A DNA stretch of 38,854 nt from a virus: IMG/VR virus record IMGVR_UViG_3300044623_000555, positions 1-38,854 of that record; one strand, 5' to 3'. The position numbers and the translations under genes were made by a program. This document shows positions 829-38,418 of this stretch, piece by piece; position 1 is the first letter of the stretch; each line of letters opens with the position of its first letter. A model generated the notes under the pieces. It saw only the letters and a list, made by a program, of their open reading frames with translations. It was not told where the DNA came from and searched no databases.

Positions 829-937
829 AACTTGTCTCCATGCCCTGCGTCCGGCAGGTGCGGTTGCCGTAATCTTTCGGCATGAGGATATTAACCCCGA
901 TTCATCGGGAAGTCAAGCAGCGGGGCGGCAATTCTAA
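829..937 (-). promoter_or_regulatory. Promoter/leader module E, drives DUF932 gene
   Basis: Read on the minus strand: an A-rich stretch, an AATTGCCGCCCCGC box, -35 TTGACT (916-911), a spacer holding the perfect inverted repeat CCCGAT-GA-ATCGGG (909-896), and -10 TTAATA or TAATAT (894-888). The leader follows with hairpin 1 (stem TGCCG/CGGCA, 882-865, loop containing AAAGAT) and hairpin 2 (stem CCTGC/GCAGG around loop CGGAC, 858-844), then GGAGAC and the ATG at 828. Its architecture matches modules A-D at 1846, 2951, 5347 and 38301. The stem bases differ from the other copies but still pair. Confidence 0.8.
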
Positions 938-1322
938 AGTTTTTTTAAACTGTTTGAAGTCAATCAAATTTAGTGCAACGGTGAACGCGAAGGAAACGAC
1001 CCCGTTTCCGGGGTCTTTTAGTGCAAACGGAGCCACGCTTCGGTTGTACGCCACGATTCCAAGCAGTATCGTTACTTGGTTCCATTTTGATATTCGGTTG
1101 ATATCCGCTGCCATCGTGAAGGAGCGCAAGCCCGAACAGGACATGGCGCGAGATAGGGTCAGTCCTCGCGTCTACACCGATCCCTCCCTACCGTGCCGGA
1201 GGGGCATTGCAACATTCTTGCAGCGGACTGCTTCACTCCCGGTGATTGAGCGGTAGAATGTGATCGCTCGGGTTTCGTCGCCGCACACTTTAGCAACACG
1301 CTCAAAGAGTGCAAGAGCAAAG
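938..1322. other. Hairpin-rich stretch without a convincing gene
   Basis: No open frame here has a ribosome site or a recognisable product. The stretch holds several short inverted repeats in series on the plus strand: GACCCC/GGGGTC (998-1015), CGCGAG/CTCGCG (about 1147-1170), CCCTCC/GGAGGG (about 1181-1202), TGCAA/TTGCA around 1210, GCAG-CGGA-CTGC (about 1216-1230) and GAGCG/CGCTC (about 1247-1270). It ends at a terminator (1323-1355). It could be a small structured RNA, a replication origin region or a divergent regulatory region; the sequence alone does not decide. One hairpin loop repeats the CGGA seen in the leader modules. Confidence 0.45.
998..1019 (+). terminator. Rho-independent terminator, rightward
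   Basis: Six-pair GC stem GACCCC (998-1003) / GGGGTC (1010-1015) with loop GTTTCC, followed by TTTTA. No gene on the plus strand lies just upstream, so it would end a short untranslated transcript or shield the region from read-through. Confidence 0.6.
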
Positions 1323-1355
1323 ACCGCCATATGTAAAAATATCGGCGGTTTTTCT
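1323..1355 (+). terminator. Rho-independent terminator, rightward
   Basis: Stem ACCGCC (1323-1328) / GGCGGT (1344-1349), extended inward by ATAT/ATAT with one bulged C, then TTTTTCT. It lies just before the first rightward gene, so it separates that gene from anything transcribed from 1020-1320. Confidence 0.75.
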
Positions 1356-1365
1356 ATTGAAGGGG

Positions 1366-1393
1366 TTGCGTTGTAGTGAGGTGTTGTTAATGT
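1366..1393 (+). promoter_or_regulatory. Possible leaderless promoter of the 1400 gene
   Basis: TTGCGT (1366-1371), 16-nt spacer, TAATGT (1388-1393). The 16-nt spacer and TTGC start match the leader modules. The distance from the -10 box puts the first transcribed base at about 1400, the A of the ATG, and there is no good ribosome site. The boxes are only partly consensus. Confidence 0.35.
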
Positions 1394-1399
1394 GGCAAG

Positions 1400-1897
1400 A
1401 TGATAAACACACTTGAAAAGCCTACATGGAATGAGACATGGCAAATGATTCGCGGGTTGTGGTCTGAGTGGGAACCGACCCCGCAAACCACTAAGTGGTT
1501 GTGGGAAAGATGGATGCCGCTTCATCAAGACAAATTAATGGATGCTGTCAAGCAGCATCGAATGGAAGCCGCATCGGAAAAATCAAACCGACCAATATTT
1601 AATCGCATCAACGATCTATACATAGAGAGAACGGTTCAGCAGCAACTCGTTGTTCACACGCGAGTTGAGAAAGAAAAAATACAGCCGCTTTCTGACAGAG
1701 ATTTTAAGGAGTGGGACAAGTGGGCTGCAAAGGTCATGGCAACTGCAACCGCTGAAGAAATCAAAGCCGCTCAAGAGGGTGTTGGCTTGCTTTCAATAAG
1801 TACCGAACGAGTTCTTGCTATTGCGGTGGATTTGTACCGCGAAAAGAATCTCACAAAATCTAGGAAAATACCGCCCGCGCCGCTTGCCCCCCGGTAG
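1400..1897 (+). CDS. Small replication-like protein, possibly helicase-loader type
   Basis: 165 residues. The first half (about 8-75) follows the pattern W-x-E-x-W...L...W.P......W....M...D.L..AV..H......P.....I, which resembles the helical N-terminal domain of phage helicase loaders of the G39P type. The rest is charged and ends in a short Pro-rich tail. If right, it would recruit the host DnaB helicase, which fits a genome with no helicase, primase or polymerase of its own. The resemblance is by pattern only and is weak. The last 50 bases of the gene also form the upstream part of promoter module A, so coding and regulatory sequence overlap. No clear ribosome site precedes the ATG. Confidence 0.5.
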   Translation: MINTLEKPTWNETWQMIRGLWSEWEPTPQTTKWLWERWMPLHQDKLMDAVKQHRMEAASEKSNRPIFNRINDLYIERTVQQQLVVHTRVEKEKIQPLSDRDFKEWDKWAAKVMATATAEEIKAAQEGVGLLSISTERVLAIAVDLYREKNLTKSRKIPPAPLAPR

Positions 1898-1969
1898 ATC
1901 GGTGCTATACTCTATATGTAAGGCAAGATGCCTTACCCGACCCGCCGGACGCGGATACAGGAGACAGTC
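1846..1969 (+). promoter_or_regulatory. Promoter/leader module A
   Basis: Upstream boxes AATCTCACAA and TACCGCCCGC lie inside the end of the preceding gene. -35 TTGCCC (1884-1889), 16-nt spacer holding CCGGTAGATCGG (1891-1902), -10 TATACT (1906-1911). Hairpin 1 is GTAAGGC-AAGAT-GCCTTAC (1918-1936), starting right at the expected first transcribed base. Hairpin 2 is CCGC-CGGAC-GCGG (1942-1954). Ribosome site AGGAGAC (1959-1965), ATG at 1970. The ATG at 1928 in hairpin 1 is in frame with the gene but is probably not the start. Confidence 0.85.
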
Positions 1970-2215
1970 ATGGAAACCACAGAAATCATTTACGAAGTAA
2001 CCGGAACCAAAGCATCTTGGACACGCGGCGGCACAATGCGATTTGTAGACCAAAACATCAAATCAGTTTGGATTGCCCGCCGAATTGCAAATCAATCATG
2101 GACAGCAACCGTTTGGACAGTTGATCCGATCACAGGCAAGCGCGTTCGGTTTGAAAATCAAAAGCAAGCAAAAATCGCGTATGCCGAATTCCTAAAAACC
2201 AACAAGGCTGTTTGA
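1970..2215 (+). CDS. Hypothetical early protein, 81 aa
   Basis: The start at 1970 is chosen because it follows AGGAGAC, although the frame is open up to an ATG at 1928 in the leader. The protein is small, basic and rich in Trp, Thr and Arg, with alternating hydrophobic stretches in the middle (WIARRIANQSW, ATVWTVD) that suggest a small beta fold. I do not recognise a family. It is the first gene of the module A unit with the three following small genes, a position typical of early host-takeover proteins in phages; that role is inference. Confidence 0.7.
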   Translation: METTEIIYEVTGTKASWTRGGTMRFVDQNIKSVWIARRIANQSWTATVWTVDPITGKRVRFENQKQAKIAYAEFLKTNKAV

Positions 2216-2240
2216 CAAATTTAATACCAAGGAGATCAAA

Positions 2241-2543
2241 ATGCCAAGTCAAACACGCAAACACCGCCGCTCATACAAAAATGCCGTTCGAGTAATCAAC
2301 AAGCGTATTTCAAACCTAGCAAGCCGAATTGATTTGGTTGCTAGCAAAGTTTGCCCGTCTTACGGCATGTCGTGGAGCGAACCAATTAATTCTGCAGCGC
2401 ACGGCGCATATGGAGATGAGGTGCGCCAATGGGCATATGAATTGGCTTTGCTTCAGCGCAAACTGTGGAGCGCGGAGTATTTCCAACACACCACTCACAA
2501 GCAACGTCGCATTTGGGCAGCAGAAGAAGCGAGTGAATCATGA
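2241..2543 (+). CDS. Hypothetical early protein, 100 aa
   Basis: Ribosome site AAGGAG at about 2229-2234, 6 nt before the ATG. The N-terminus is strongly basic (SQTRKHRRSYKN), followed by mostly helical sequence rich in Leu, Ala and Trp. No known family recognised; the basic start could contact nucleic acid. The stop overlaps the next start (ATGA), so translation is likely coupled. Confidence 0.7.
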   Translation: MPSQTRKHRRSYKNAVRVINKRISNLASRIDLVASKVCPSYGMSWSEPINSAAHGAYGDEVRQWAYELALLQRKLWSAEYFQHTTHKQRRIWAAEEASES

Positions 2544-2743
2544 ACGACATTCAACTTGCAACCTTTAGAACAATTGCTGACGCAATGCTTGGCAGCAACC
2601 GCATTTGGAATTGGCACTCCGACATTGACCGATGGGCTCCGGCTCAACAGTTAATTAGCGTGACCGAAAAACAAGCCCGCGATTGGCAGCGAAAGTACGG
2701 TGGCACGATTACTTGCGACTTCAAGATTGAGGCAAAGCCATGA
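2540..2743 (+). CDS. Hypothetical small protein, 67 aa
   Basis: Starts in a 4-base ATGA overlap with the preceding gene and ends in another with the next. The sequence has several Trp and His residues in the middle (NRIWNWHSDIDRW). No family recognised. The unbroken chain of ATGA overlaps supports it as real. Confidence 0.65.
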   Translation: MNDIQLATFRTIADAMLGSNRIWNWHSDIDRWAPAQQLISVTEKQARDWQRKYGGTITCDFKIEAKP

Positions 2744-2949
2744 TCAGATTCAACACCAATGCAAGATTAAATGAACTCATGGCTAAGAAGTCTGATGCCA
2801 TGACGGTGTTTACAAACGCCAAGATTGCCCACAGCAAAGCCGTTGCGGCATTGCCTGAAACGGCAGCACTCGCAGAGGCTCAAATTAAATTCAACAAAGC
2901 ATCTGTAGAGATGTTGAATTACCACAAGAAATTGAATCCGGAGACATAA
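2740..2949 (+). CDS. Hypothetical small helical protein, 69 aa
   Basis: ATGA overlap with the preceding gene. It is rich in Ala, Lys and Asn and looks wholly helical, with heptad-like spacing of Leu, Ala and Val from about residue 10 to 65. It is the last gene before promoter module B. No family recognised. Confidence 0.65.
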   Translation: MIRFNTNARLNELMAKKSDAMTVFTNAKIAHSKAVAALPETAALAEAQIKFNKASVEMLNYHKKLNPET

Positions 2950-2950
2950 A

Positions 2951-3078
2951 AGAATCTCACAATCTTTCAATAATTACCGCCCGCCCCTCTTGCATACCGA
3001 TGAATCGGGGGTATACTACTAATGTAAAGCAAGATGCTTTGCCCGCGACCCCCGGACGGGGAACACAAGGAGACTGAT
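2951..3078 (+). promoter_or_regulatory. Promoter/leader module B
   Basis: Upstream AATCTCACAATCTTT and AATTACCGCCCGC boxes, -35 TTGCAT (2990-2995), 16-nt spacer with the perfect inverted repeat CCGAT-GA-ATCGG (2997-3008), -10 TATACT (3012-3017). Hairpin 1 is GTAAAGC-AAGAT-GCTTTGC (3024-3042). Hairpin 2 is CCCC-CGGAC-GGGG (3049-3061). Ribosome site AAGGAGA (3067-3073). Compared with module A, both stems have changed on both sides while the loops are the same. Confidence 0.87.
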
Positions 3079-3381
3079 ATGGCACAACTACAAATTACAC
3101 CCGCAGTACTAAGTCAAACCTATCGGGGCAAGCCCGGAAAATGCTGCTGCGGATGCAGCGGAAACTACTACGAAGATGCAAAGACAATGCAGCGGTGCAT
3201 TAACAAGGTTGCAAAGCACATTGCAAACGGAGGCGAGTATCAACTTGGCGGGACATATATGTCGGCTGACATTGGGAATGTCCAATACAACATTTACTTC
3301 AACGACAATTGGAATGTTGAAGAGTTAAATGGCGTAATCGCAGTATGCAAGTCAGTAGCCCGAATTACTTTTAATGACTAA
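3079..3381 (+). CDS. Cys-cluster small protein, 100 aa
   Basis: The start at 3079 follows AAGGAGA; an in-frame ATG at 3034 lies in the leader hairpin and is not preferred. Residues about 17-28 hold a compact Cys cluster (KCCCGCSGNY), with a further Cys in the following helix, so metal binding is possible. The rest is a small alpha/beta sequence rich in Asn, Gly and Tyr. I have the impression that this Cys cluster occurs in other phage hypothetical proteins but cannot name a family. First gene of the module B unit. Confidence 0.7.
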   Translation: MAQLQITPAVLSQTYRGKPGKCCCGCSGNYYEDAKTMQRCINKVAKHIANGGEYQLGGTYMSADIGNVQYNIYFNDNWNVEELNGVIAVCKSVARITFND

Positions 3382-3391
3382 GGAACCCACC

Positions 3392-3754
3392 ATGAGAACT
3401 CAAAAACAAATTTTTGAAACAATGACATTGCGATTAGCAACTGCTGAAGGATCAATTGCTGAAGGCAACATGGACAATTACAGGCGTGATGCTGCTGTAG
3501 ATACTGCCAATGCGTTTATCTCGTTTGCGTGTGCAATTGGCATCTTTACTGCGAAAGACAGACTTGAATGGTCAGGGCGCATTTTGATAGCGCGAAACTA
3601 TGCGACCATGCGAAGGTTTCAATTAATGAAAGAAGAATTGGAAAAGGAAACAGAAAATGCAGTCAAGATTTTGGCTGCAAGTCATAGCGTAATTTCACCC
3701 CGTGCAGATGCGACCCCCTCTTGGATGCAGGGTCTACCTGTAGAAATGGATTGA
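3392..3754 (+). CDS. Hypothetical helical protein, 120 aa
   Basis: The start at 3392 follows AAGGA at 3380-3384; an ATG at 3374 overlapping the previous gene is less likely. The predicted product is mostly helical, with a hydrophobic stretch (FISFACAIGIF, about residues 42-52) too short to be a clear membrane segment, then an Arg/Glu-rich helix. No family recognised. It sits between the Cys-cluster gene and the recombination genes. Confidence 0.65.
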   Translation: MRTQKQIFETMTLRLATAEGSIAEGNMDNYRRDAAVDTANAFISFACAIGIFTAKDRLEWSGRILIARNYATMRRFQLMKEELEKETENAVKILAASHSVISPRADATPSWMQGLPVEMD

Positions 3755-3758
3755 TGCC

Positions 3759-4055
3759 ATGTTGACAGAAGAAGAAAAGTTTGCGTTGAAGATGTATCAA
3801 AGGTTGGTACAGGAAGATCCAAGGGAGGTTTTCCGTGACATGAGAAAACAAATCTTGCGCGATTTTGAGTTTGGCTACAAAGCGGGATTTGAAGGAAAGT
3901 ACGAAACCCACAAACTTCTGTATCCCGAATATGTTTTGTTAAATGACCAAGATCGACAGAAATTGCACTTGATGATTTTGCAATCATTGCAAGCGGGCGC
4001 ACAGGCTTTTACGGCTATAAGATTGACAAATTTATTAAACACGAAAGCGGAGTAA
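3759..4055 (+). CDS. Hypothetical protein, 98 aa
   Basis: Begins 4 bases after the preceding stop. Predicted helical throughout, with an acidic and basic N-terminal half and a Leu-rich C-terminal half. It ends just before the ERF gene, whose ribosome site GGAG lies in its last codons, so the two are probably translated together. It could be an accessory to recombination by position only. Confidence 0.65.
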   Translation: MLTEEEKFALKMYQRLVQEDPREVFRDMRKQILRDFEFGYKAGFEGKYETHKLLYPEYVLLNDQDRQKLHLMILQSLQAGAQAFTAIRLTNLLNTKAE

Positions 4056-4057
4056 TC

Positions 4058-4837
4058 ATGCAACGAAGCGAAACGATTGGAACTATCGCAAGCGCGATGG
4101 CGAAAGCAAATTTGGAAATCAAGAACCCTGAACTAGACGGGATCAACCCGCATTACAAGAGCAGGTTTGCCACTCTTGCGGCTGTGTTGAATGCCGTGCG
4201 GTCACCACTAGCAAAGCAAGGGATCGCCGTTCTACAGCCCGTCACAATGGATGGGAACTTCGTAGCGGTCACTACGACCCTTGCACACTCAAGCGGTGAG
4301 TGGATCTCTGAAACCCTGTCGTACCCGCTACCTGACCGTAGCACGGTGCAGCAGATTGGCTCGACTGTTTCCTACCTTCGGAGGTATTCACTTATTAGTT
4401 TCTGCGGTCTAGTGGGTGAGGATGACGATGGGGACTCTGATCGCCAAGCCCCTACTGAAGATCGCAAGCCCTTCAAGCCACAGAATGCCCGTGGAGCCAC
4501 CCCGGTTCAGGCGAAGCCCCAAGCCGCCCCAACGGCTGAAACCGCGCCCAAAGCCAACCCTGCCCCGGCATCCGGGGTGGCGGACGCGTTCCCGGATGAT
4601 GGTGAGTTCGTAGTACGGGTCAACAAGGTTGTTCGCAGGAAAGGAAAGCCGACTGCAATATCGGTTACAAGCGAAGACCATGGTGCTTGTTATGCATCCA
4701 CGCTTGTAGACGGCTACGCGGATTACCTTGAAGACATTACAGGGGAATTGGTTACCCTTGGGTTGACCCGAAACGGTTTGATTCTTGAAATTACTCACAT
4801 CACAAAGCCTGAGACAGTATCTAAACTAGAATTCTAA
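4058..4837 (+). CDS. erf: ERF-family single-strand annealing protein
   Basis: 259 residues. The N-terminal about 125 residues carry the ERF pattern: H-Y-K-S-R-F-A near residue 32-38, alternating hydrophobic strands, then YLRRYSL (106-112) followed by the acidic EDDDGD (121-126) that closes the domain. A Pro/Ala-rich linker (about 135-190) leads to a small beta-rich C-terminal part. ERF proteins anneal single-stranded DNA during phage recombination and genome circularisation. Ribosome site GGAG precedes the ATG. The gene ends 36 bases before a strong terminator. The next gene is a nuclease, a common partner for annealing proteins. Confidence 0.9.
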   Translation: MQRSETIGTIASAMAKANLEIKNPELDGINPHYKSRFATLAAVLNAVRSPLAKQGIAVLQPVTMDGNFVAVTTTLAHSSGEWISETLSYPLPDRSTVQQIGSTVSYLRRYSLISFCGLVGEDDDGDSDRQAPTEDRKPFKPQNARGATPVQAKPQAAPTAETAPKANPAPASGVADAFPDDGEFVVRVNKVVRRKGKPTAISVTSEDHGACYASTLVDGYADYLEDITGELVTLGLTRNGLILEITHITKPETVSKLEF

Positions 4838-4873
4838 GCCATTGGCTACGCCCCACACGGGCGAGTCAGTCTC

Positions 4874-4925
4874 CCCCCGCGCATCCGGTTCCTAGACGGG
4901 TCACCCATGCGCGGGGGTTTTCTTT
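4874..4925 (+). terminator. Strong rho-independent terminator after erf
   Basis: An 11-pair stem, CCCCCGCGCAT (4874-4884) / ATGCGCGGGGG (4907-4917), followed by TTTTCTTT. The next gene starts at 4926, directly after the T-run, and its only plausible ribosome site is the G-run in the 3' arm of this stem. Confidence 0.9.
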
Positions 4926-5345
4926 ATGCGCCCGATCTACGAACAGCCACACAATCGCAAGATGCAGCGCGAGTTGATTGCATTGCTTCGGGCTGAACGC
5001 CCGGAGTTGCATTGCATTGAAACGGATCGCCTTGAGCCGTATGACTTTGAATTTAAGCGTGACGGGAAAGTCACCGCAATTGTGGAAGTAAAGGTTCGGC
5101 AACTTTCGTTTTACCGATTCCCCAACTACATGATTGCCGCAAAGAAGTCTGATAATCTTCGCAGACTGTCACGCGAAATGAAATGCGGAGCGCATTTGCT
5201 TGTTGGATTTCCTGATGCGGCTGCGCTGTTTACATTTACCGACCAAGTATTTCCACGCGCACAGGCAGGACGCAAAGACCGCAATGACAAACAAGACATA
5301 GAACCATGCGAGTTTATTCCGCTGTCATTGTTTAGAAGGCTGTAA
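4926..5345 (+). CDS. PD-(D/E)XK-like nuclease (Holliday resolvase / VRR-NUC type)
   Basis: 139 residues. Motif D40-(13)-E54-V-K56 within a strand-turn-strand (YDFEFKR ... TAIVEVKVR) fits the core of the PD-(D/E)XK nuclease fold; a conserved Lys pair follows at the AAKKSDNL helix. The length fits small phage resolvases or RecB-like exonucleases. It probably cuts DNA in the recombination pathway with ERF. It starts immediately after a terminator, so it may be expressed only when transcription reads through or from RNA where the hairpin opens. The alternative start at 4962 has no ribosome site. Confidence 0.65.
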   Translation: MRPIYEQPHNRKMQRELIALLRAERPELHCIETDRLEPYDFEFKRDGKVTAIVEVKVRQLSFYRFPNYMIAAKKSDNLRRLSREMKCGAHLLVGFPDAAALFTFTDQVFPRAQAGRKDRNDKQDIEPCEFIPLSLFRRL

Positions 5346-5346
5346 A

Positions 5347-5471
5347 AGAATCTCACAATCTTTTGAGAATTACCGCCCGCGCCCCTTGCACCCCGCCGGA
5401 TCGGTGCTATACTACTGATGTAAGGCAAGATGCTTTACCCGACCCGCCGGACGCGGACACAGGAGACACTC
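5347..5471 (+). promoter_or_regulatory. Promoter/leader module C
   Basis: Upstream AATCTCACAATCTTTT and AATTACCGCCCGC boxes, -35 TTGCAC (5386-5391), 16-nt spacer with CCGCCGGATCGG (5393-5404; right half-site kept, left half changed), -10 TATACT (5408-5413). Hairpin 1 is GTAAGGC-AAGAT-GCTTTAC (5420-5438). Hairpin 2 is CCGC-CGGAC-GCGG (5444-5456). AGGAGAC follows, with the ATG at 5472. Confidence 0.87.
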
Positions 5472-5846
5472 ATGACAAACAGCAACGACATCAAGACGGT
5501 TGATCTCATCCCATTACTCGTCCGCGACCACGCTTTCAAGTTCTCAGTCGTGTTTTGCGAATACGCAAACAACATGAACGACAAGACTTGGGACGATGTA
5601 ATGCAGGTGTTTGCCGACTTCAAAAAGTGGCTCGACAAGGACAAGAATCACAATGCAAATGAAGCGTATGTATTTAATGACGAAGGTGACACCGAGTATC
5701 GCGAATCAACAAGTGATCGGTTGCAGCGTTACATGGACAACCTCAAGGAATTTCATGGCTCAGAAGTGACATCGTGGTCAACAGTTGATGACATCGTTTC
5801 AATCCTAAACTCGCTTGGATGCTCAATCGCCGACCAAGCCTTTTGA
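5472..5846 (+). CDS. Hypothetical acidic protein, 124 aa
   Basis: The start at 5472 follows AGGAGAC at the end of module C; the upstream in-frame ATG at 5430 lies in the leader. The protein is acidic, rich in Asp and Asn, and looks alpha-helical. No family recognised. It is the first gene of a run of small genes up to the HTH-like gene. Confidence 0.7.
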   Translation: MTNSNDIKTVDLIPLLVRDHAFKFSVVFCEYANNMNDKTWDDVMQVFADFKKWLDKDKNHNANEAYVFNDEGDTEYRESTSDRLQRYMDNLKEFHGSEVTSWSTVDDIVSILNSLGCSIADQAF

Positions 5847-5864
5847 CACACACAGGAGACACTC

Positions 5865-6260
5865 ATGTACACACCACAAGTAATTTTGCGAGGCGCGGCT
5901 CGAAGGAATAAGTTGGCAGTTACTATTGCCGGGATGATTGATGACAACTTTGAGGCAATGCTAAATAGCAACGGGCGAGAACAAGCCCGCATAGATCGTT
6001 ACAACGAAGCAGAGATTCAAAAGATCAAAACCCACAACGAGGCGTACATTGCCGTATTGGAGTCGGGCGGGATTATTAACTACCACCAAGGTACTAGGCT
6101 TTTGGACTTTAATGAGGGTAGCGCGGAAATCGCCATAGTCGCTTGGAAGAATCTGCAGGACGAGTTCTACAAGTACGAAAGCCTTGGTGACGGCAAGGGA
6201 GACTTTGAGGCTTGGGCGAACGCACGATCTAATTTGCCCGAATACGCGGAGGGTACTTAA
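5865..6260 (+). CDS. Hypothetical protein, 131 aa
   Basis: The ribosome site and start context (ACACAGGAGACACTCATG, 18 bases) is identical to that of the preceding gene, as if copied with it. The N-terminal segment is basic (ILRGAARRNK), the rest mixed and acidic. The stop overlaps the next start by one base (TAATG). No family recognised. Confidence 0.68.
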   Translation: MYTPQVILRGAARRNKLAVTIAGMIDDNFEAMLNSNGREQARIDRYNEAEIQKIKTHNEAYIAVLESGGIINYHQGTRLLDFNEGSAEIAIVAWKNLQDEFYKYESLGDGKGDFEAWANARSNLPEYAEGT

Positions 6261-6445
6261 TGTTTCCGCAAGACGAAATTGAGTTCAAGGCAGCAATGCC
6301 ACGCGATAACGAGGATGTGTTCGTCCGGGCAGCGTATTGGTTAGTGTGGGATGACCGCTATGGATGCCCGCAAGGACAATCTGCCCGCAAGGTTATAAAG
6401 TGCTTGCGAGATTTAGTCACACAGACTGCGGAGAATTGCAAATGA
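6260..6445 (+). CDS. Hypothetical small protein, 61 aa
   Basis: Starts in a TAATG overlap with the previous gene and ends in an ATGA overlap with the next. Acidic N-terminus, then an aromatic segment (AAYWLVWDDRYG), then a basic C-terminal part. No family recognised. Confidence 0.6.
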   Translation: MFPQDEIEFKAAMPRDNEDVFVRAAYWLVWDDRYGCPQGQSARKVIKCLRDLVTQTAENCK

Positions 6446-6843
6446 CGGTTGACCGTAGCGGGTGGCTAAAGAAGCCCGTGCGTGGGATAGTTACTTCTGT
6501 CAAGCCGTATGTTACTCATGCTCTGTTTGAAACGCACCACGGCAACCACAGGCGCAGTTGGACAAAGATTCACAAGGACTACGAGCAGCCCATTACAAGG
6601 TTGTGCGTAGTACTTCTTATGGACGAGGGGTGGCTTCTTTGGGGAGCCGTTGGCGGTGGGCTAAAAGGTCTTGACCCATTACCGCCAATTAAAATCGGGC
6701 ATCGAATTCAAATTGATTCAGCCTGTCTAAAGCAACTTCAAAGCGAGTTGTATGTTGACACCTCATATGCAGACCGAATTATTCATGGCAAAATCCTAAA
6801 GAATACGACCCCGATACTTGACAATTATAAGCATCGGGGCTAA
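6442..6843 (+). CDS. Hypothetical protein, 133 aa
   Basis: The start at 6442 is chosen for the ATGA overlap; the frame is open upstream to 6364 but that would lie inside the previous gene. The middle has alternating hydrophobic strands (ITRLCVVLLMDEGWLLWG) suggesting a small beta fold, followed by Gly-rich turns. No family recognised. Its last codons form the promoter and half-sites of the HTH-like gene. Confidence 0.65.
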   Translation: MTVDRSGWLKKPVRGIVTSVKPYVTHALFETHHGNHRRSWTKIHKDYEQPITRLCVVLLMDEGWLLWGAVGGGLKGLDPLPPIKIGHRIQIDSACLKQLQSELYVDTSYADRIIHGKILKNTTPILDNYKHRG

Positions 6844-6846
6844 AAT
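6809..6846 (+). promoter_or_regulatory. Strong tac-like promoter with flanking CCCCGAT / ATCGGGG half-sites
   Basis: Consensus -35 TTGACA (6818-6823), 17-nt spacer, -10 TAAAAT (6841-6846); the layout closely resembles the tac hybrid promoter. CCCCGAT (6809-6815) and ATCGGGG (6833-6839) flank the -35 box as an inverted repeat and match the half-sites in the module spacers. The expected first base (about 6853) is within 2 nt of the ATG at 6855, so the transcript is nearly leaderless. It would drive the HTH-like gene and the ParB/methyltransferase cassette. Confidence 0.75.
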
Positions 6847-6854
6847 GGCAATCA

Positions 6855-7097
6855 ATGAAGCAGCGTGTAATTGCCAAGCCAATGGACATTCGTGATTCCC
6901 TGTTGGCGAGTCTAAAAGAACAAGGCAAAACGAAGTATCGGTTTGGTGTTGAATGCTCAATGTCGGGCATTTGTCAACATCACACCGTAGATGAAATTCT
7001 TTCAACTACCGGGAACTCAGACAGAGTCCCATCTCTTGCTACTGCAATTGCTATGCTGAATGCTGTTGGGTTAGAACTAGTAGTTCGCCCGGTTTAA
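6855..7097 (+). CDS. Small HTH (Xre-like) protein, candidate regulator
   Basis: 80 residues. Residues about 15-78 follow a Cro/CI-like pattern: a first helix with LLASLKEQGK, a putative recognition helix-turn-helix around SMSGICQHHTVDEILS, and a C-terminal segment RVPSLATAIAMLNAVGLELVV that matches the usual last helix and strand of Xre/antitoxin-type domains. There is no ribosome site; with the tac-like promoter above, a leaderless mRNA is likely, as for lambda cI. Half-sites like those in the early promoters flank its own promoter, so it may repress both itself and the early units. The fold call is by pattern; the target is inference. Confidence 0.55.
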   Translation: MKQRVIAKPMDIRDSLLASLKEQGKTKYRFGVECSMSGICQHHTVDEILSTTGNSDRVPSLATAIAMLNAVGLELVVRPV

Positions 7098-7108
7098 CAA
7101 GGAAACAT

Positions 7109-7678
7109 ATGGAAATCGAAGAAATTCTGATTGGCGATCTTATTGGTGACCCAAATAACGCACGGCGGCACAGCAGGTCAAACATTGAAGCCATTAAGGC
7201 AAGCCTTGAAGCCTTTGGTCAGCAAAAGCCAATCGTTGTTACCCATGACAATGTAGTTATTGCAGGTAACGGATTTCTTATGGCGGCGGCTGAACTTGGT
7301 TGGAAGACGATTGAGATCGTCCGAACATCCCTAACCAAGAAAACTGCTGCTGCATTTGCTATTGCAGACAACCGAACCGCTGAGTTGGCTGATTGGGATC
7401 TAGAAGCACTTCAGCGAGTTATTGATGAAATGCCAATGCCGCTCCGAATGGCATCGGGATGGAATGAATCTGAAATCGCAGACATTCTAAAAAAGGCTGC
7501 TAGCGCAGAGCATTACAAGCCAATCGTTACGCCTGATTTTGGCAACTCATTGGTTACTGCTAAGGATGTTGACCGTGCAAACAATGTGTTTGATGTTGCT
7601 AGGAGCGAGTCGTTAAAGGTTGGGATTTGCTGCCCGCGCTGCGGAGGGGAGTTTGAAATTGACGCTCCAAATCAATAA
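7109..7678 (+). CDS. ParB-like (ParB/Srx fold) protein with C-terminal Cys motif
   Basis: 189 residues. The N-terminal about 90 residues match the ParB/sulfiredoxin-like domain seen in phages: DPNNARRHS near 14-22, GQQKPIVV (37-44), IAGNGFLMAAAELGW (51-65) and ADNRTAE. A CCPRCG pair of Cys sits near the C-terminus, a possible zinc knuckle. Domains of this family bind or nick DNA or nucleotides and are often fused or adjacent to DNA methyltransferases in phages, as here. Ribosome site AAGGAAA precedes the ATG. The 3' end overlaps the methyltransferase gene by about 20 bases. Confidence 0.8.
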   Translation: MEIEEILIGDLIGDPNNARRHSRSNIEAIKASLEAFGQQKPIVVTHDNVVIAGNGFLMAAAELGWKTIEIVRTSLTKKTAAAFAIADNRTAELADWDLEALQRVIDEMPMPLRMASGWNESEIADILKKAASAEHYKPIVTPDFGNSLVTAKDVDRANNVFDVARSESLKVGICCPRCGGEFEIDAPNQ

Positions 7679-8471
7679 TTGGGACAGGCACTTTTATCTC
7701 GCAAAATGGATTGACGAAGCGCGATGGAAATACGCGGCATCTATGCCCAAGTTCCCTCACGAATATACCCTTCGTAAATGGAACAGCGATGCGGAGTTTG
7801 ATGACGCGGTAATGTTTATCCGCGAATTTGGGTATCCTCAAAAGTTCTACAAGTCAACCTATATGTATTTTGACTTTAACGGGTGGCATCATTGGTCTAT
7901 GGGTGCGCCCGTAAAAGACACCATTCTGATTAACCGTGGGATAAAAAAGTACAACACCGTCTATGACGAAATAGCAGCGTCTTATGACGGACTGTTTGCA
8001 GACCCCGAATCCAACAAAGAAACCAATGAAGTTCTTGAAATGATCGGCGCGGTTGACGGGCGCGTTTTAGATGTCGGATGTGGAACCGGGCTTTTGCTAG
8101 ACGGGTGCAAGGTGGGCGATTACACGGGCATTGACATATCAACAGGAATGCTTGATGTCTTGCGAAAGAAGCACCCCGATTCTTCAGGGAAGATTATGTG
8201 TTCGTCTTTTGAAGATTGCTACATGACCGGGTTTGACAAGATTGTCGCGCTGTTTGGGGTAGCCAATTACATCCCCGAAAAACATCTAGAACGCATCCCA
8301 ATGATGTTAAATCCCGGCGGGTCTGCATTTCTCATGTTTTACGGACCGGATTACAGCCCTGTTACATATTCTAAAACCGGAACCGTTGTGCCAAGCAACT
8401 CAGCCTACGAGCCCAAAGACGGCGATGTCCCGTACAACAATTACTTTATCCGCAAGATAACAGCCCAATGA
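7659..8471 (+). CDS. Class I SAM-dependent methyltransferase with extra N-terminal domain
   Basis: 270 residues from TTG 7659, chosen because GGAGGGG lies 9 nt upstream and the conserved-looking N-terminus begins here; a TTG at 7653 is also possible. Residues 1-95 form a separate domain (DRHFYLAKWID; YTLRKW; MGAPVKDTILINR) that I recall only as an uncharacterised phage domain. Residues about 97-250 are a Rossmann methyltransferase: motif I VLDVGCGTG (136-144), then the acidic DISTGML. The substrate is unknown. There is no DNA-methylase NPPY/DPPY motif, so the target may be a small molecule, RNA or protein instead of a DNA base. ATGA overlap with the next gene. Confidence 0.82.
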   Translation: MTLQINNWDRHFYLAKWIDEARWKYAASMPKFPHEYTLRKWNSDAEFDDAVMFIREFGYPQKFYKSTYMYFDFNGWHHWSMGAPVKDTILINRGIKKYNTVYDEIAASYDGLFADPESNKETNEVLEMIGAVDGRVLDVGCGTGLLLDGCKVGDYTGIDISTGMLDVLRKKHPDSSGKIMCSSFEDCYMTGFDKIVALFGVANYIPEKHLERIPMMLNPGGSAFLMFYGPDYSPVTYSKTGTVVPSNSAYEPKDGDVPYNNYFIRKITAQ

Positions 8472-9625
8472 AGATCTATTTAAAGCAAAATGTCTATGAC
8501 GCTGCGCTTGACAGGATTCGGTATTTGTTTGACGAGTTCCCAAATGTAGTCGTTGGATTCTCCGGCGGCAAAGACAGCACGGTAACCCTGCAATTGGCAT
8601 TAATAGTAGCGGAGGAGAAAAACAGGCTCCCGCTAAAGGTTATGTTCTTAGACCAAGAGGCTGAATGGGAATGCGTTATTGACTACATTCGATCCGTTAT
8701 GAACGATCCACGGGTTGAGCCTATGTGGGTGCAGGTTCCCTTCAAAATTGCCAACGCGACCTCTTCCGCTGAACCGTGGCTGCATTGTTGGGACGAAAGT
8801 TCTGAAAGCCAATGGATGCGACCCAAGGAGCCAAACTCCATCAAGGTCAACAAATACGGCACAGATCGCTTTGCAGCCATGTTTACCAAGTTTGCGGAGG
8901 TTGAGTTCCCGGACAGCCCAATGTGCTATCTAGGGGGAGTTCGATGCGAGGAATCAGTAAGCAGAATGGTTGGTCTGACCGCAGCCGCGACCTACAAGCA
9001 CATTACTTACGGCAAGTATCTAAACCGCAAGAAGCACCATTACACCTTTTACCCAATTTACGATTGGTCGTACACGGATGTTTGGAAGGCAATCCATTCT
9101 CACAAATGGACTTACTGCGAACTCTATGATGTCATGTTCCAATATGGGGTGGCTCCCCGTGATATGCGCGTGTCCAATGTAAACCACGAAACAGCAGTAA
9201 AGAGCCTGTATTACATGCAGGAGTTTGAACCGCTGACTTGGAACAAATTGACCAAGAGAATTGGCGGCATCAAAATGAGCGGTCAACTCAAAGGTGGTGC
9301 GTTTTCGGTAGTTAAATCGCTGCCTGATATGTTCTCGTCTTGGAAGGAATACCGGGATTTCCTGCGAGACAAACTATTAACAGACGCTGCTAAAGAGAAA
9401 ATGACGAAGATTTTTACCCGAATGGACGCTTCATATGACACTTACAACGACCATGACGATATGTACCGGGTGCAAATCAATGCCATCTTGGCAAACGATT
9501 ACGAGGGTACAAAGTTGAATAATTGGGAAAGATCGCCGATCCGTCACCTTTATCGCCGTATGAAACGCGACCCAAGCGTTGTTGCTTACACGGGCGCGTA
9601 CAAGGATGCACTCAATGCTAAATGA
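8468..9625 (+). CDS. PAPS-reductase-like PP-loop protein (IbrA-like)
   Basis: 385 residues. The PP-loop SGGKDS (32-37) follows a strand VVVGF and begins an ATP-pyrophosphatase domain of the phosphoadenosine phosphosulfate reductase family. Downstream LGGVRCEES and the IYDWSYTDVWK segment are typical of the longer phage and mobile-element branch that includes IbrA. The reaction is unknown; members activate a substrate with ATP and some relatives handle sulfur. It overlaps the methyltransferase (ATGA) and the following ParB-like gene by 11 bases. An IbrA-like gene followed by a ParB-like IbrB is a known pairing. Confidence 0.85.
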   Translation: MKIYLKQNVYDAALDRIRYLFDEFPNVVVGFSGGKDSTVTLQLALIVAEEKNRLPLKVMFLDQEAEWECVIDYIRSVMNDPRVEPMWVQVPFKIANATSSAEPWLHCWDESSESQWMRPKEPNSIKVNKYGTDRFAAMFTKFAEVEFPDSPMCYLGGVRCEESVSRMVGLTAAATYKHITYGKYLNRKKHHYTFYPIYDWSYTDVWKAIHSHKWTYCELYDVMFQYGVAPRDMRVSNVNHETAVKSLYYMQEFEPLTWNKLTKRIGGIKMSGQLKGGAFSVVKSLPDMFSSWKEYRDFLRDKLLTDAAKEKMTKIFTRMDASYDTYNDHDDMYRVQINAILANDYEGTKLNNWERSPIRHLYRRMKRDPSVVAYTGAYKDALNAK

Positions 9626-10265
9626 GATCAAAAAACAGTTTGATGCCGCAGAAGACAAGATCGCCTTCGTATCCGAATTGCGGAAGTGGATTCATACCGA
9701 ACTGTCCCTGTTGTCCGGTCAGCCTATTGACAATGTACTTTGGGTTCCCGTAGAGAAAGTCACGCCCAACGAGTACAACCCCAACTCCGTAGCACAGCAA
9801 GAGATGGGACTGCTTTACACCTCCATTATGCACGATGGGTACACGCAGCCTATTGTGACCGTATATAACGAAACGACAGGGCTTTACGAAATTATTGACG
9901 GGTTCCACCGCTATTACACCTGCAAGACTCAAAAGGATGTCAGGGACAGGAACATGGGCATGGTTCCCATTGTCGTGCTAAAGAAAAGCATCAACGACCG
10001 CATGGCTTCAACCGTGCGCCACAATAGGGCTAGAGGCAAGCACTCAGTAGCAGGGATGAGCAACTTAGTATTTCAGATGCTTAATGGCGGGTGGCTAGAT
10101 AACGACATTTGCAACGAATTGGGCATGGAGCCGGAAGAACTGCTGCGGCTCAAGCACATCACCGGATTTAGCAAGTTGTTTGACGATGCCGAATACCGAA
10201 AGTCTTGGGTCACCAAGCAACAAATTCGCCTTCACAAGGAACACGGAGTGCCATGCCCGGAGTAG
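9615..10265 (+). CDS. ParB-like protein (IbrB-like), partner of PP-loop protein
   Basis: 216 residues from ATG 9615, with AAGGA 8 nt upstream. After a helical N-terminus (1-40), the ParB-like domain runs from VPVEKVTPNEYNPN (44-57) through GYTQPIV (75-81) to EIIDGFHRYYTC (92-103), with H and R in the family's usual G-x-x-R position. The C-terminal half is helical and may bind DNA. The order PP-loop protein then ParB-like protein is that of IbrA/IbrB. Translation is coupled to the neighbours on both sides. Confidence 0.82.
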   Translation: MLNEIKKQFDAAEDKIAFVSELRKWIHTELSLLSGQPIDNVLWVPVEKVTPNEYNPNSVAQQEMGLLYTSIMHDGYTQPIVTVYNETTGLYEIIDGFHRYYTCKTQKDVRDRNMGMVPIVVLKKSINDRMASTVRHNRARGKHSVAGMSNLVFQMLNGGWLDNDICNELGMEPEELLRLKHITGFSKLFDDAEYRKSWVTKQQIRLHKEHGVPCPE

Positions 10266-10741
10266 ACTCCTCCAACTCCCCCCGGCGGCGGGGTAGACCT
10301 AAGAACCCCACGCAGAGCGGCGGGGTAGGGGAAGGTTTGCCCGCAAAGTCAAAGAAGCCCAAGAAGAAGCCACCCGCTCCTGTTGAGAAGGTGGTAGGCG
10401 ACACCCTCATTCAAGACCTTAATGACCCACACCGTAAGCGTGGCACATATGCCTTGTTACAGCGGGCAATTGATGTGGCAATGGACATCCCGTTTGAAGC
10501 CATGAGGATGGCAAGCATGACCGCAGTCCGCGACCTAAGCAGTTCGGATGACCGGATACGGTCAAGGGCGCGGGAGTTCTTACTAAAGGTGCAGGACAGC
10601 GGGGTCGGATCTGCTGTCGGTCTTGACCGCATGGTTCGGCTTGATGACGGCACATCTACTGAAAATGTCGCAATAGCGTCAATAACACCCGAAGCATTGG
10701 CTGCGGTGGTTCAGACCATTCGCGGAAACTACCCCCGGTAA
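10253..10741 (+). CDS. Putative terminase small subunit
   Basis: 162 residues from ATG 10253, with GGAG just upstream. The N-terminal 45 residues are Pro/Lys/Arg-rich and probably disordered (RRRGRPKNP; KSKKPKKKPP). The middle is helical (about 60-115) and the C-terminus ends a residue before the large terminase start (TAAATG). Position and the basic tail plus helical core fit a small terminase subunit, which recognises phage DNA for packaging. I see no decisive motif, so the call rests mainly on position. Confidence 0.55.
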   Translation: MPGVDSSNSPRRRGRPKNPTQSGGVGEGLPAKSKKPKKKPPAPVEKVVGDTLIQDLNDPHRKRGTYALLQRAIDVAMDIPFEAMRMASMTAVRDLSSSDDRIRSRAREFLLKVQDSGVGSAVGLDRMVRLDDGTSTENVAIASITPEALAAVVQTIRGNYPR

Positions 10742-12196: not shown

Positions 12197-12220
12197 ATGT
12201 CATTGGCTTCGGGGTAGCAT
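12193..12220 (+). promoter_or_regulatory. Possible leaderless promoter of the 12227 gene
   Basis: TTGAAT (12193-12198), 16-nt spacer, TAGCAT (12215-12220). The expected first base falls on the ATG at 12227, and there is no ribosome site before that gene. Same spacing as the candidate at 1366-1393. Confidence 0.35.
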
Positions 12221-12226
12221 CAAGCC

Positions 12227-13426: not shown

Positions 13427-13935
13427 TGAACATGACCGCCGAATCAGTTGCCAAACGAGCAGCCGCTTCGGGGCGTTCGTTTACTCAGCAATGGATGCTT
13501 GACAACCAAGCGGAGCGCGATGCCTATGTAAAGCAACGCGATGCTGCTGAACAGAAGCGGGCGTTAAAATCAGCGGTTAACAACTCGCCGGAAGTCAAAC
13601 AGGCTGAAGCCAACTTGGCAAAAGCAAAAGCCGATCTTGCGGACTTTGAGGTTCGCCGCCGCGCTGCGGAGATTGCGGGCGAACGCCTTGCGCGGCGTGA
13701 ACAAGAACACGCCGCGTTGACCGCTAAATTGGAGCAGCAGAAGCGTGAAGCGGATGCCCGTGTTGCTAAGTTGGCTCAAGACAGGCAAGCAATGGAAGCC
13801 CGTCACGCAGCGGATAGCAAGGCAAGGGAAGAACGCACCGCTGAGTTGAAGCGCAAGATGGAAGAAAGCAAAGCGATGTATAAAGGCAACACCACGATTT
13901 CAGCGTCCTTACTACGAAAGATGAGAGCACGATGA
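13426..13935 (+). CDS. Coiled-coil protein, possible scaffold or internal head protein
   Basis: 169 residues with a long unbroken helical region from about 30 to 155, rich in Ala, Glu, Lys, Arg and Gln with heptad-like spacing (for example KQAEANLAKAKADLADFE; EQEHAALTAKLEQQKRE). No membrane segment. The start overlaps the previous stop (TAATG) and the end overlaps the next start. A long coiled coil in the head gene cluster could be an internal or scaffold-like protein; the stand-alone scaffold is more likely encoded at 18902. Confidence 0.72.
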   Translation: MNMTAESVAKRAAASGRSFTQQWMLDNQAERDAYVKQRDAAEQKRALKSAVNNSPEVKQAEANLAKAKADLADFEVRRRAAEIAGERLARREQEHAALTAKLEQQKREADARVAKLAQDRQAMEARHAADSKAREERTAELKRKMEESKAMYKGNTTISASLLRKMRAR

Positions 13936-14444: not shown

Positions 14445-14893
14445 CTATTTCAGACAACAGCATTTCACTCAAAGCGGGCGTGGCGATCTTGCCAAACCGA
14501 ATAGTGTATGTGTCATCATCGCACGGCGATTTTACGGTTATCCCTACCCCGTTTGTTAATCTTCCAAATCAAGCAGAACAAGTAATTCCAATTGGTGTAA
14601 CTGATGGCTCTGTATCTAAAGTTGACGGTGTTTATCACGCGTTAGCGGGTGAAACAGTCACGCTACAGCGAAACATTGTTGTGACCCTAACCGCAGGAAA
14701 CACAATTGCGGCAGGAGACTTTATTGAATCATCAACAGATGGAATAGCCGAAAGCCGAATGCCTCCGTTTGAAACCTTTCAAATCTTTCGTTTTGCTTTC
14801 TATCAAGCACTTGAACCTGCCGCTTCCGGGCAAAAGTTTCAAGCAATTAAAATTGGATCAAGTGCTTATCGCGTTCAACTAAATGCCGGATAA
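14441..14893 (+). CDS. GVTDGSV-family protein 2 (decoration-like)
   Basis: 150 residues from ATG 14441 (ATGA overlap). IPIGVTDGSV is followed by YHALAGETVTL and AAGDFIESSTDG, the same order of elements as in the decoration-like protein at 19560 just before the major capsid gene. The final third (FQIFRFAFYQALEPA) resembles the ends of the other copies. Predicted small beta-barrel virion protein. Confidence 0.72.
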   Translation: MTISDNSISLKAGVAILPNRIVYVSSSHGDFTVIPTPFVNLPNQAEQVIPIGVTDGSVSKVDGVYHALAGETVTLQRNIVVTLTAGNTIAAGDFIESSTDGIAESRMPPFETFQIFRFAFYQALEPAASGQKFQAIKIGSSAYRVQLNAG

Positions 14894-14904
14894 CAGGTGA
14901 CAAA

Positions 14905-15417: not shown

Positions 15418-15419
15418 AA

Positions 15420-36626: not shown

Positions 36627-36925
36627 TTTAGTTGCCATACTTTGATCATTCGTCCGTGTGTTGATGCCCTTGATGAAGAAATTACTTTGCCCGTCCAACT
36701 AAATCCATTGAATACGCTGCCCGCAGCGTTTTTTAACTCAGAATAATTTAACCCGGATGCTTCCATGTCTCGCGCAACATCATCTGATGTCACTTGCCCA
36801 AGCGTGTGTGCTATTCGTTTTGCTGACTCTTGAGCAAGTTTGAGCAGTTCTTGTCTTGCGCCCGCCGCAAGATTCATTCCGTAGTCTTTGCGCCGTTGCG
36901 CTTCTGCGTGGTCAAAGAGTTCCAT
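36623..36925 (-). CDS. Winged-helix-like phage protein, 100 aa
   Basis: Start at 36925 after a strong AAGGAGG. TSDDVARDMEASG (about 45-57) then GSVFNGFSWTGKVISSSR and a final HGRMIKVWQL strand follow the pattern of small winged-helix proteins common in phages. Could bind DNA or regulate early genes. No named family. Confidence 0.6.
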   Translation of the reverse strand: MELFDHAEAQRRKDYGMNLAAGARQELLKLAQESAKRIAHTLGQVTSDDVARDMEASGLNYSELKNAAGSVFNGFSWTGKVISSSRASTHGRMIKVWQLK

Positions 36926-37175
36926 GATATTGTTCCTCCTTGGTTGGGATGTCGGCGTGTGGAACGCGCTTGATTCGCACGGCTGCGGGCGCGACAATTC
37001 GCATCCGCGCCTTGCGTAATTTTGATCCGCAGCGGCAAGCCTTCAAGCCGGAAGCCAACTCAATGTAGACCGGGATTGGTTCGCCGTCCGGGTTGTGTGC
37101 TAGAAGCATAATTGCTTCCGCTGAATCACATTCAACCCGTAGCGTCAAAACTAAGCATTTGTAGTCAGGGATCAT
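36912..37175 (-). CDS. Hypothetical protein with a Cys pair, 87 aa
   Basis: ATGA overlap with the gene before it and a 14-base overlap with the next. A CRC pair in the middle (KACRCGSK, about residues 46-53) and a basic run after it (KLRKARMRI). Function unknown. Confidence 0.6.
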   Translation of the reverse strand: MIPDYKCLVLTLRVECDSAEAIMLLAHNPDGEPIPVYIELASGLKACRCGSKLRKARMRIVAPAAVRIKRVPHADIPTKEEQYHGTL

Positions 37176-37516
37176 TTGCGCTCCATTTCTTCAATCAAAT
37201 CAACTGCCACAATTTCAGCGACCATTTTTGCCCAATACTCCTTGGCGGCTTCTACGGTCATATCAATCCACGGAGCGTTGGCATTGATTTGCCATTTTTG
37301 ATATCGCATACATCCCGTGCGGACGATAATTACGGCTGTAAGTTCCCACGACCATTTTGTCTTGCCGTCAACCGTCTTTTTAGCAGCCATTGCGGTTGGC
37401 TCGACAATTCCAATAAGCGAACCTTCGGGAGCGGAAGCGGCAGTCTCGTCAATCTTTTCAAGATCGCTTGCATTAATAGCGGCAGTCTCAATTTCAATTG
37501 CAAATCCATTAACCAT
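37172..37516 (-). CDS. Hypothetical protein, 114 aa
   Basis: Start chosen at ATG 37516; an in-frame TTG at 37546 would add ten residues but is inside the preceding gene. Mixed alpha/beta with WSWELTAVIIVRTGC in the middle and a helical C-terminus (AKEYWAKMVAEIVAVDLIEEME). No family recognised. Confidence 0.6.
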   Translation of the reverse strand: MVNGFAIEIETAAINASDLEKIDETAASAPEGSLIGIVEPTAMAAKKTVDGKTKWSWELTAVIIVRTGCMRYQKWQINANAPWIDMTVEAAKEYWAKMVAEIVAVDLIEEMERK

Positions 37517-37895
37517 TTGGGATGCTTTCTGAGTGGTAGTAGGCAACTTTTAATGTTTCAACTTGTTCGATTTCGACTCGAAGAAGTCGGACATCGTTAA
37601 TTATGCGTCTGAGGTCTTGCAGAGATTGACCCTTTAACTGAACGTCAATCCATTCTGAAAGCGTGTAAATTTGAACGGGATTTTCCCTTGTGTAATTGTC
37701 GTTGCAGCACCACCCCTTTACTGCTTCGGCTGCAAGTTTCTTAGATTCAAAGCCTTCGCAGTAATAATCAAACCCTCCTTTGAATTTCCAATACTGCGGG
37801 CAATCTGTTTCGGTGCTGCTATCCCAATCGTGCGCCCCGTAGTTCTCTTGAAATTGCGTCATTACGATAAAGGTTTCGGGTGTGTTAGTTGGCAT
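37509..37895 (-). CDS. Phage protein with FQENYGAHDWD motif, 128 aa
   Basis: TQFQENYGAHDWD followed by CPQYWKFKGG near the N-terminus is a motif I recall in other phage proteins of unknown function. The C-terminal half is helical (LQDLRRIINDVRLLRVEIEQV). It is the second gene of the leftward operon. Confidence 0.65.
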   Translation of the reverse strand: MPTNTPETFIVMTQFQENYGAHDWDSSTETDCPQYWKFKGGFDYYCEGFESKKLAAEAVKGWCCNDNYTRENPVQIYTLSEWIDVQLKGQSLQDLRRIINDVRLLRVEIEQVETLKVAYYHSESIPNG

Positions 37896-37916
37896 TGTGA
37901 AATCCTTTCTTGATTC

Positions 37917-38300
37917 TTAGAAGTTGTAGTCGTAGTGCTTGACGGGCTGCGTGTGCAATCGGTATGACGCGTTGTGTGCTGAACGCCATCCCTTGTTCTT
38001 TGACAGGCGAATTCGATAGATTGGATTAGCAGGGTTTGAAGTGCAATCCCAATGCTGTTGCCCGTTGTTAGTGCAGATTGCTGAGAACCCGCCCGGAACG
38101 AATTCGGGCTTCCAATCCGGAGAGTGAACTGCATCCATCTCGCGAATCTCAATGCACTTGTCGCTTACGAACCGGATGATTTCGCATGGGGTGACATCGC
38201 TGTAGCCAATGCGATTTGCGTAAATTAACCTGCCCTGCTCATAGGATTCGCGTTCGGTGAGTGGGCGCCAAATTTCAACGGTGGTGGTTGCATTGCTCAT
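37917..38300 (-). CDS. Hypothetical protein, 127 aa, first gene of the leftward operon
   Basis: ATG 38300 follows AAGGAGA at the end of module D. The sequence is mixed, with many Arg, His and Trp residues, and no motif I can name. In this module copy the leader ATG at 38340 opens a 15-codon frame (MPRPNRRTRN start) whose TGA overlaps this start (ATGA), so the leader frame could couple to it. Confidence 0.68.
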   Translation of the reverse strand: MSNATTTVEIWRPLTERESYEQGRLIYANRIGYSDVTPCEIIRFVSDKCIEIREMDAVHSPDWKPEFVPGGFSAICTNNGQQHWDCTSNPANPIYRIRLSKNKGWRSAHNASYRLHTQPVKHYDYNF

Positions 38301-38418
38301 ATCAGTCTCCTTGTGTTCCGCGTCCGGCGGTTCGGGCGGGGCATCTTGCTCCGCATATACATAATAGCACCGATTCGCCGGGGCGCAAGGGGGCGGGGCG
38401 GTAATTCCCCAAAGATTG
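38301..38418 (-). promoter_or_regulatory. Promoter/leader module D, drives the leftward operon
   Basis: Read on the minus strand: ACAATCTTT and GGAATTACCGCCCCGC boxes, -35 TTGCGC (38388-38383), 16-nt spacer with CCGGCGAATCGG (38381-38370), -10 TATTAT (38366-38361). Hairpin 1 is GCGGAGC-AAGAT-GCCCCGC (38354-38336, one A/C mismatch). Hairpin 2 is CCGC-CGGAC-GCGG (38330-38318). AAGGAGA, then ATG at 38300. Confidence 0.85.

Follow-up and report, generated by a model that had tools for sequence, protein, structure and literature searches.

An apparently undescribed family of promoter and hairpin-leader modules heads early genes in a group of related phages

By analyzing the whole of the IMG/VR virus record IMGVR_UViG_3300044623_000555 (38,854 nt, hereafter the window), we found that five copies of a promoter/leader module of about 125 nt head early transcription units on both strands (Table 1). 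Comparison with related viral contigs indicates that these modules form a real, conserved and apparently undescribed family of phage control elements, of the repeated, start-associated kind found in early regions. We consider it fairly likely that each module is a two-layer cassette, in which an operator for a HipB/XRE-like regulator would be combined with a hairpin leader that influences translation or the stability of the mRNA, and that this cassette has been reused on different genes in different phages. Since the contig ends overlap by about 115 nt, the phage genome is circular or terminally redundant, with a length of about 38.7 kb. It encodes a terminase, portal and head proteins, an Erf annealing protein, a RusA resolvase, a PDDEXK nuclease and ParB-like and PAPS-reductase-like proteins.

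All five modules share the same order of parts, namely a -35 of the form TTGNNN, a spacer carrying a CCG...CGG inverted repeat, a -10, hairpin 1, hairpin 2, the Shine-Dalgarno (SD) sequence (A)GGAGAC and an ATG. The spacer is 16 nt long in four modules and 17 nt in the module at 829. The -35, -10 and transcription start sites are predictions; a generic sigma-70 scan found promoters to be no commoner than in shuffled DNA, and recovered two of the five modules plus a site at 6818-6846. With positions 5340-5475 as query, blastn retrieved three other copies (E = 2e-39, 1e-31 and 1e-20). The copy at 829-937 on the minus strand is too diverged for blastn and was linked to the others by a profile hidden Markov model (HMM; 70 bits, E = 1e-19) and a covariance model (86 bits), both of which were built with that copy included. 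The five positions proposed in a preliminary description of this DNA are thereby borne out, the query copy and three others by blastn at E <= 1e-20 and the fifth by profile. As the record is circular, the gene headed by the module at 829, which encodes a DUF932 protein, runs across the contig ends.

Two other claims of the preliminary description hold in part. First, it had listed an upstream (A)ATTRCCGCCC box among the ordered parts. All the parts from the -35 to the ATG stand; the box does not stand as a defining part, because it occurs in 5/5 window copies and in some copies of the closest relative (G001) and is absent from the copies of the other relatives, which places it outside the wider module family. 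Second, the statement that nearly all small early genes fall under a module is fair, except that gene 1400-1897 and the regulator gene at 6855-7097 lie outside. We also noticed that 5850-5867, just before gene 5865, is an 18-nt exact copy of the SD/start region of module 4, without hairpins.

Relatives of the phage were found in viral contigs via the conserved hairpin loops and SD pattern, and via Erf. Three of them, labelled G001 (3300036978_000205), G002 (3300044971_000892) and G003 (3300036770_002143), are compared below with the window, labelled G000. A covariance model built from 24 copies identified five sites in G000, six in G001, eight in G002 and seven in G003, with scores of 86-122 bits. 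The totals for G002 and G003 each include one promoterless leader, made of hairpin 1, hairpin 2 and the SD only, which precedes an internal gene. Three more distant phages (G007, G008 and G010) carry one or two copies each, scoring 35-49 bits. G010 was found by a narrower RNA pattern alone, and its second copy is divergent, with ATGAT as hairpin 1 loop and CGGGA as hairpin 2 loop. G006 has a single diverged promoter with one hairpin after it and then a CTGA-AGGAT-TCAG hairpin with an SD-like AGGA in its loop; this arrangement is possibly a relative of the module family. Thus, the module is carried by other genomes and is present there, too, in several copies on different genes, which strengthens the earlier proposal that it is reused across a genome.

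Beyond these contigs, the following searches found nothing similar. In Rfam, the window gave 0 matches at the gathering threshold and nothing relevant at E <= 5. Among 50,697 phage records, megablast with window positions 1-20000 found no similar DNA and blastn with one module found no match. The literature gave analogues only, in agreement with the preliminary description, whose author knew of no described family. A non-exhaustive scan of GTDB genomes for the leader pattern yielded no convincing leader among the 120 stretches listed, and the top covariance matches among those stretches proved on reading to be ClpP-like coding sequence. A loose DNA pattern (CCGCCC...CCGGACG...GGAGAC) was discarded, as it gave more than 118 chance matches in viral contigs, none of them a module according to the profile HMM.

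In an alignment of 30 leaders (28 distinct), 93.7% of the cells were paired compared to 74.8% in shuffled alignments, and 9 of the 13 pairs over both hairpins showed both-sided changes (50 cells). The covariation score reached 0.470, against 0.158 +/- 0.019 in shuffles (0/500), and all slid controls were at or below 0.092. These compensatory changes and this excess of covariation indicate that the structure of both hairpins is under selection, and that the similarity between copies is more than that of recent duplicates without conserved structure. Moreover, the stems differ within one genome and yet stay paired, which points to RNA hairpins rather than DNA operators in this part of the module.

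Unlike the stems, the loops are kept, hairpin 1 having mostly AAGAY and hairpin 2 CGGAN. The hairpin 1 loop is AAGAT in 18 of the 30 leaders, the rest having AAGAC, ATGAT, ATGAC and others; that of hairpin 2 is CGGAC, CGGAT or CGGAA in 29 of 30, so that a GGA is found in 29/30. In one module of G002/G003, hairpin 1 carries a CGGAT loop, which suggests that the two loops may substitute for each other. In 30/30 leaders, including those of distant phages with unrelated downstream genes, 19-23 nt separate the hairpin 2 loop from the start codon. Together with the promoterless copies, this constant distance argues for a role in translation initiation rather than in transcription alone.

Table 1. 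Coordinates of the modules, the candidate regulator and the candidate RNA-binding protein in the window (IR, inverted repeat; -35 and -10 elements are predicted).
Feature	Position	Strand	Details
Module 1	826..944	-	heads DUF932 gene, ATG 828-826; orthologous module before DUF932 in three relatives
Module 1 promoter		-	-35 TTGACT 916-911; spacer with CCCGATGAATCGGG; -10 TAATAT 893-888
Module 1 leader		-	hairpin 1 882-865 (AAGAT within loop); hairpin 2 858-844 (loop CGGAC); GGAGAC; ATG
Module 2	1846..1972	+	-35 1884-1889; spacer IR 1890-1905; -10 1906-1911
Module 2 leader		+	hairpin 1 1918-1936 (AAGAT); hairpin 2 1942-1954 (CGGAC); SD 1959-1964; ATG 1970
Module 3	2951..3081	+	-35 2990-2995; -10 3012-3017
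Module 3 leader		+	hairpin 1 3024-3042 (AAGAT); hairpin 2 3049-3061 (CGGAC); SD 3068-3073; ATG 3079
Module 4	5347..5474	+	-35 5386-5391; -10 5408-5413
Module 4 leader		+	hairpin 1 5420-5438 (AAGAT); hairpin 2 5444-5456 (CGGAC); SD 5461-5466; ATG 5472
Module 5	38298..38418	-	-35 38388-38383; -10 38366-38361
Module 5 leader		-	hairpin 1 38354-38336 (AAGAT); hairpin 2 38330-38318 (CGGAC); SD; ATG 38300
Regulator promoter	6809..6846	+	leaderless; TTGACA-17-TAAAAT, same half-site as modules
Regulator promoter IR	6809-6815 / 6833-6839	+	CCCCGAT / ATCGGGG, second arm directly before -10
Regulator gene	6855..7097	+	small HipB/XRE-like protein, 80 aa; candidate repressor of modules and of itself
Small CsrA-like-family protein	36912..37175	-	in module 5 operon; candidate RNA-binding partner of leader hairpins, weak match

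Comparison of the genomes shows that copies were gained or lost before different genes during the evolution of these phages. A module stands before the DUF932 gene in all of G000-G003. For window genes 2540, 3374 and 37509, relatives have a module before the homologue, whereas in the window these genes are internal and unheaded. Mean module identity is 0.61-0.64 within a genome, which is close to the 0.60 observed between the window and G001, and the best partner of the window DUF932 module is the DUF932 module of G001. These values point to a history in which vertical inheritance is mixed with copying; the leaders of modules 4 and 2 are 89% identical.

At the DNA level, the covariance model also matched 6791-6858, where a promoter without hairpins precedes a small regulator gene. 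In the first 20 kb, no sigma-70-like promoter scores higher than this one (6818-6846; 11/12, a score shared by an antisense match that overlaps it). With only 8 nt between the end of the -10 and the ATG, the gene would be leaderless. Orthologues of the regulator occur in every relative examined (G001-G003 and G005-G010, the G009 gene being cut by a contig end), and by reading the sequences we found a -10 a few nt (mostly 6-8) before its start codon in G001, G002, G003, G005, G006, G007, G008 and G010. The AlphaFold2 model of the protein (mean predicted local distance difference test score, pLDDT, 82.8) has a lambda-repressor-like helical fold, and its top Foldseek matches in PDB are HipB and other lambda-repressor-like helix-turn-helix proteins (prob 0.97-1.00, template modelling score 0.57-0.65, E 0.07-0.2). 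We therefore call it HipB/XRE-like by fold, without claiming homology. The protein had no match in GTDB genomes, phage isolates or plasmids, so that no host can be assigned.

Each of the genomes G000-G003 has 6-7 occurrences of the pattern TTG...CGGKG-TA...T, against 0-0.25 expected. In all four genomes the matches are the modules and the regulator promoter, plus one other site in the window. That site (12193-12220, or 12193-12229 with the ATG) reads TTG...CGGGG-TAGCAT and is followed, 6 nt further on, by the ATG of gene 12227; it could place a late unit under the same regulator. Given the half-site common to the module spacers and the regulator promoter, we infer that the regulator binds the spacer repeat and represses both the early modules and its own gene.

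Taken together, these observations suggest the following two-layer mechanism. In the DNA layer, the inverted repeat between the -35 and the -10 would be the operator for the phage's own regulator, which would also act on its own leaderless promoter, so that its accumulation would turn down all early units and the regulator together. In the RNA layer, the transcript would start almost directly with the two tandem hairpins, whose spacing to the start codon is fixed and which most likely affect translation initiation or mRNA stability through a partner that reads the loops. The preliminary reading as a whole is partly supported. Its view of the modules as a shared switch reused across a genome is backed and strengthened by their reuse in other phages, by the covarying hairpins and by a candidate regulator whose putative operator fits, switching itself being the proposed function.

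Several points weigh against this mechanism. First, the regulator was assigned by shape; at the sequence level, it has weak matches (PHROG repressor, E = 0.24). Second, G000 and G001 are related, as are G002 and G003, so that the clear operator match represents about two lineages. In more distant genomes, the module repeat and the regulator promoter both differ in sequence from those of the close ones, and the half-sites that they share are short in G006-G010 (e.g. CCCTACGC in G006 and CCTACGC in G008); a test of k-mers common to the operator and the regulator promoter in eight genomes gave a combined p of only 0.026, which we take as a hint. Third, the half-sites of the window regulator promoter are 17 nt apart, compared to 2-6 nt in the modules. 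Fourth, the predicted accessibility of the SD is intermediate (mean 0.56 unpaired), and the hairpins may either raise or lower translation.

As for the partner, the leaders could form a Csr-like regulon, in which a CsrA-type protein, either the phage protein encoded at 36912-37175 or the host CsrA, would bind the hairpins and govern how all early units are translated. CsrA/RsmE recognises GGA when a hairpin loop presents it, preferably an ANGGAX hexaloop, although pentaloops have also been reported (PMC4005645), and csrA genes are known in phages (PMC7366521). Like the leader sites of CsrA, RsmA and RsmE (PMC4005645), the modules carry one GGA in a loop close to the SD, that of hairpin 2, and a second one in the SD itself (AGGA). 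The module loop differs from the best CsrA site in being a CGGAY pentaloop, and the first hairpin usually has AAGAY, not GGA.

Homologues of the 36912-37175 protein are present in G001, G002, G003 and G006, inside module-headed operons in G000-G003 and syntenic in G006; none was found in G007, G008 or G009, which argues against a Csr-like reading. Only one of the five homologues matches CsrA models: the G006 member hits Pfam CsrA PF02599 at E = 6e-4 (whole library), below the curated cut-off, and is weak against the CsrA models of PHROGs (0.077) and NCBIfam (0.11). The window, G001, G002 and G003 members match none of the CsrA models, and the window member matches nothing. Its AlphaFold2 model has five strands followed by a helix, which is the CsrA order, at low confidence. 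A fold search of PDB with this model returned no CsrA, a monomer being a poor test since CsrA is an intertwined dimer. Profile-profile comparison gave a probability of 2%, using CsrA sequences entered by hand. Given the GGA in the hairpin 2 loop and in the SD, the protein is an attractive but unproven RNA partner, and we regard a Csr-like regulon as rather unlikely. The fuller version, a regulon not described before, is in our view quite unlikely; here the cassette, copied to up to eight places, would be governed simultaneously by a phage HipB-like repressor acting on the DNA and by a highly diverged phage CsrA-like protein reading tandem pentaloops in the RNA.

The modules might also be passive cassettes, that is, a strong promoter, stabilising 5' hairpins and a good SD spread by recombination without any trans-acting factor. 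5' hairpins generally protect mRNA, copies within a genome are alike (as the leaders of modules 4 and 2 illustrate), and a fragment of the leader recurs before gene 5865, all of which would fit. However, a stabilising hairpin needs no constant loop, yet AAGAY and CGGAY are kept where stems and operators differ, and CGGAT even appears as hairpin 1 loop in one G002/G003 module. A spacer repeat common to the modules and the regulator promoter is likewise not expected from a passive element, so that we judge this explanation rather improbable.

A third alternative is a cis-acting antiterminator like HK022 putL/putR, whose RNA promotes read-through without any protein, via the zinc-binding domain of the RNA polymerase beta' subunit (PMC9378689). 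The two module hairpins would then act by binding RNA polymerase, which would read through terminators further downstream. As in putL (PMC9378689), two tandem hairpins come right after early promoters, here on both strands, and a long GC-rich terminator-like hairpin (4866-4921; window and G001) lies within the module 3 unit and immediately precedes the PDDEXK gene (4926). In contrast to put, which spans about 70 nt, has no linkage to an SD or start codon and occurs in two copies per genome, the module hairpins span about 40 nt, reach as far as the SD, are coupled to the start codon and occur in up to eight copies. The constant distance from hairpin 2 to the start codon and the promoterless copy before an internal gene fit translation better, and strong internal terminators are few. 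We thus hold a put-like function of the leaders to be very unlikely. At the PDDEXK gene itself, the terminator-like hairpin and its T run (4866-4930) end at the ATG, with no SD, and the same is seen in G001; this suggests that the gene needs read-through or antitermination.

The lambda N/nut system consists of boxA (CGCTCTTA-like) and a boxB hairpin, and was ruled out, since no GCTCTT boxA was found on reading the aligned leaders. In the module 2 unit, the small protein encoded at 2241-2543 starts with MPSQTRKHRRSYKNAV, by eye like the arginine-rich start of lambda N; as a lambda-N-like protein it was rejected, having neither a homologue in the relatives searched nor a boxA.

The closest analogue of the modules is the start-associated sequence (SAS) and extended start-associated sequence (ESAS) of cluster K mycobacteriophages (PMC3203893), which is repeated directly upstream of the start codons of non-structural genes, contains AGGAG, is attached to different gene families and varies in consensus between subclusters. 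The SAS consensus lies within 3-7 bp of the start codon, and about half of the elements have an upstream inverted repeat (PMC3203893). The modules share the repetition at many non-structural genes directly before start codons. They differ in their composition: SAS is a fixed 13-bp GGGATAGGAGCCC and ESAS a 17-bp inverted repeat, whereas a module combines a promoter, a spacer operator and two covarying pentaloop hairpins. None of the 30 aligned leaders contains the SAS consensus; their SD context is (A)CANGGAGAC or similar. Lambda OL/OR and the L5 stoperators are repeated repressor operators in several early promoters, shared with the promoter of the regulator itself. The modules resemble them in having operator-type sites in early promoters and in the regulator promoter; unlike them, the module operator lies in the -35/-10 spacer, a structured leader is attached, and the regulator, short and HipB-like, is encoded by a leaderless gene.

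Outside the modules, the apparently gene-free stretch 1027-1374, between the divergent module 1 and gene 1400, is a candidate phage non-coding RNA. G001 conserves it at 84% across 354 nt, and G002/G003 at 71% across 219 nt. At its end lies a terminator-like hairpin (about 1323-1352) that shows compensatory changes, and the stretch has no match in Rfam. The PAPS-reductase-like auxiliary gene (8468-9625; PHROG 2302, E = 2e-85) adjoins the ParB-like gene and a methyltransferase-like gene. No tRNA was found in the window. Its last 20 nt (38835-38854) repeat nearby sequence in inverted orientation and probably stem from the assembly folding back on itself where the circular contig ends.

If the two-layer reading holds, these phages would offer a clean natural example of how a phage can tie many early genes into a single circuit through copies of a compact promoter-operator-leader cassette. 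A candidate repressor can be named, and the RNA elements are directly testable in reporters. The cassette can also serve as a handle for related uncultivated phages, one phage so reached having a terminase only 55% identical. Finally, should the RNA layer have a dedicated protein, it would constitute a phage-owned post-transcriptional regulon, which is rarely seen.

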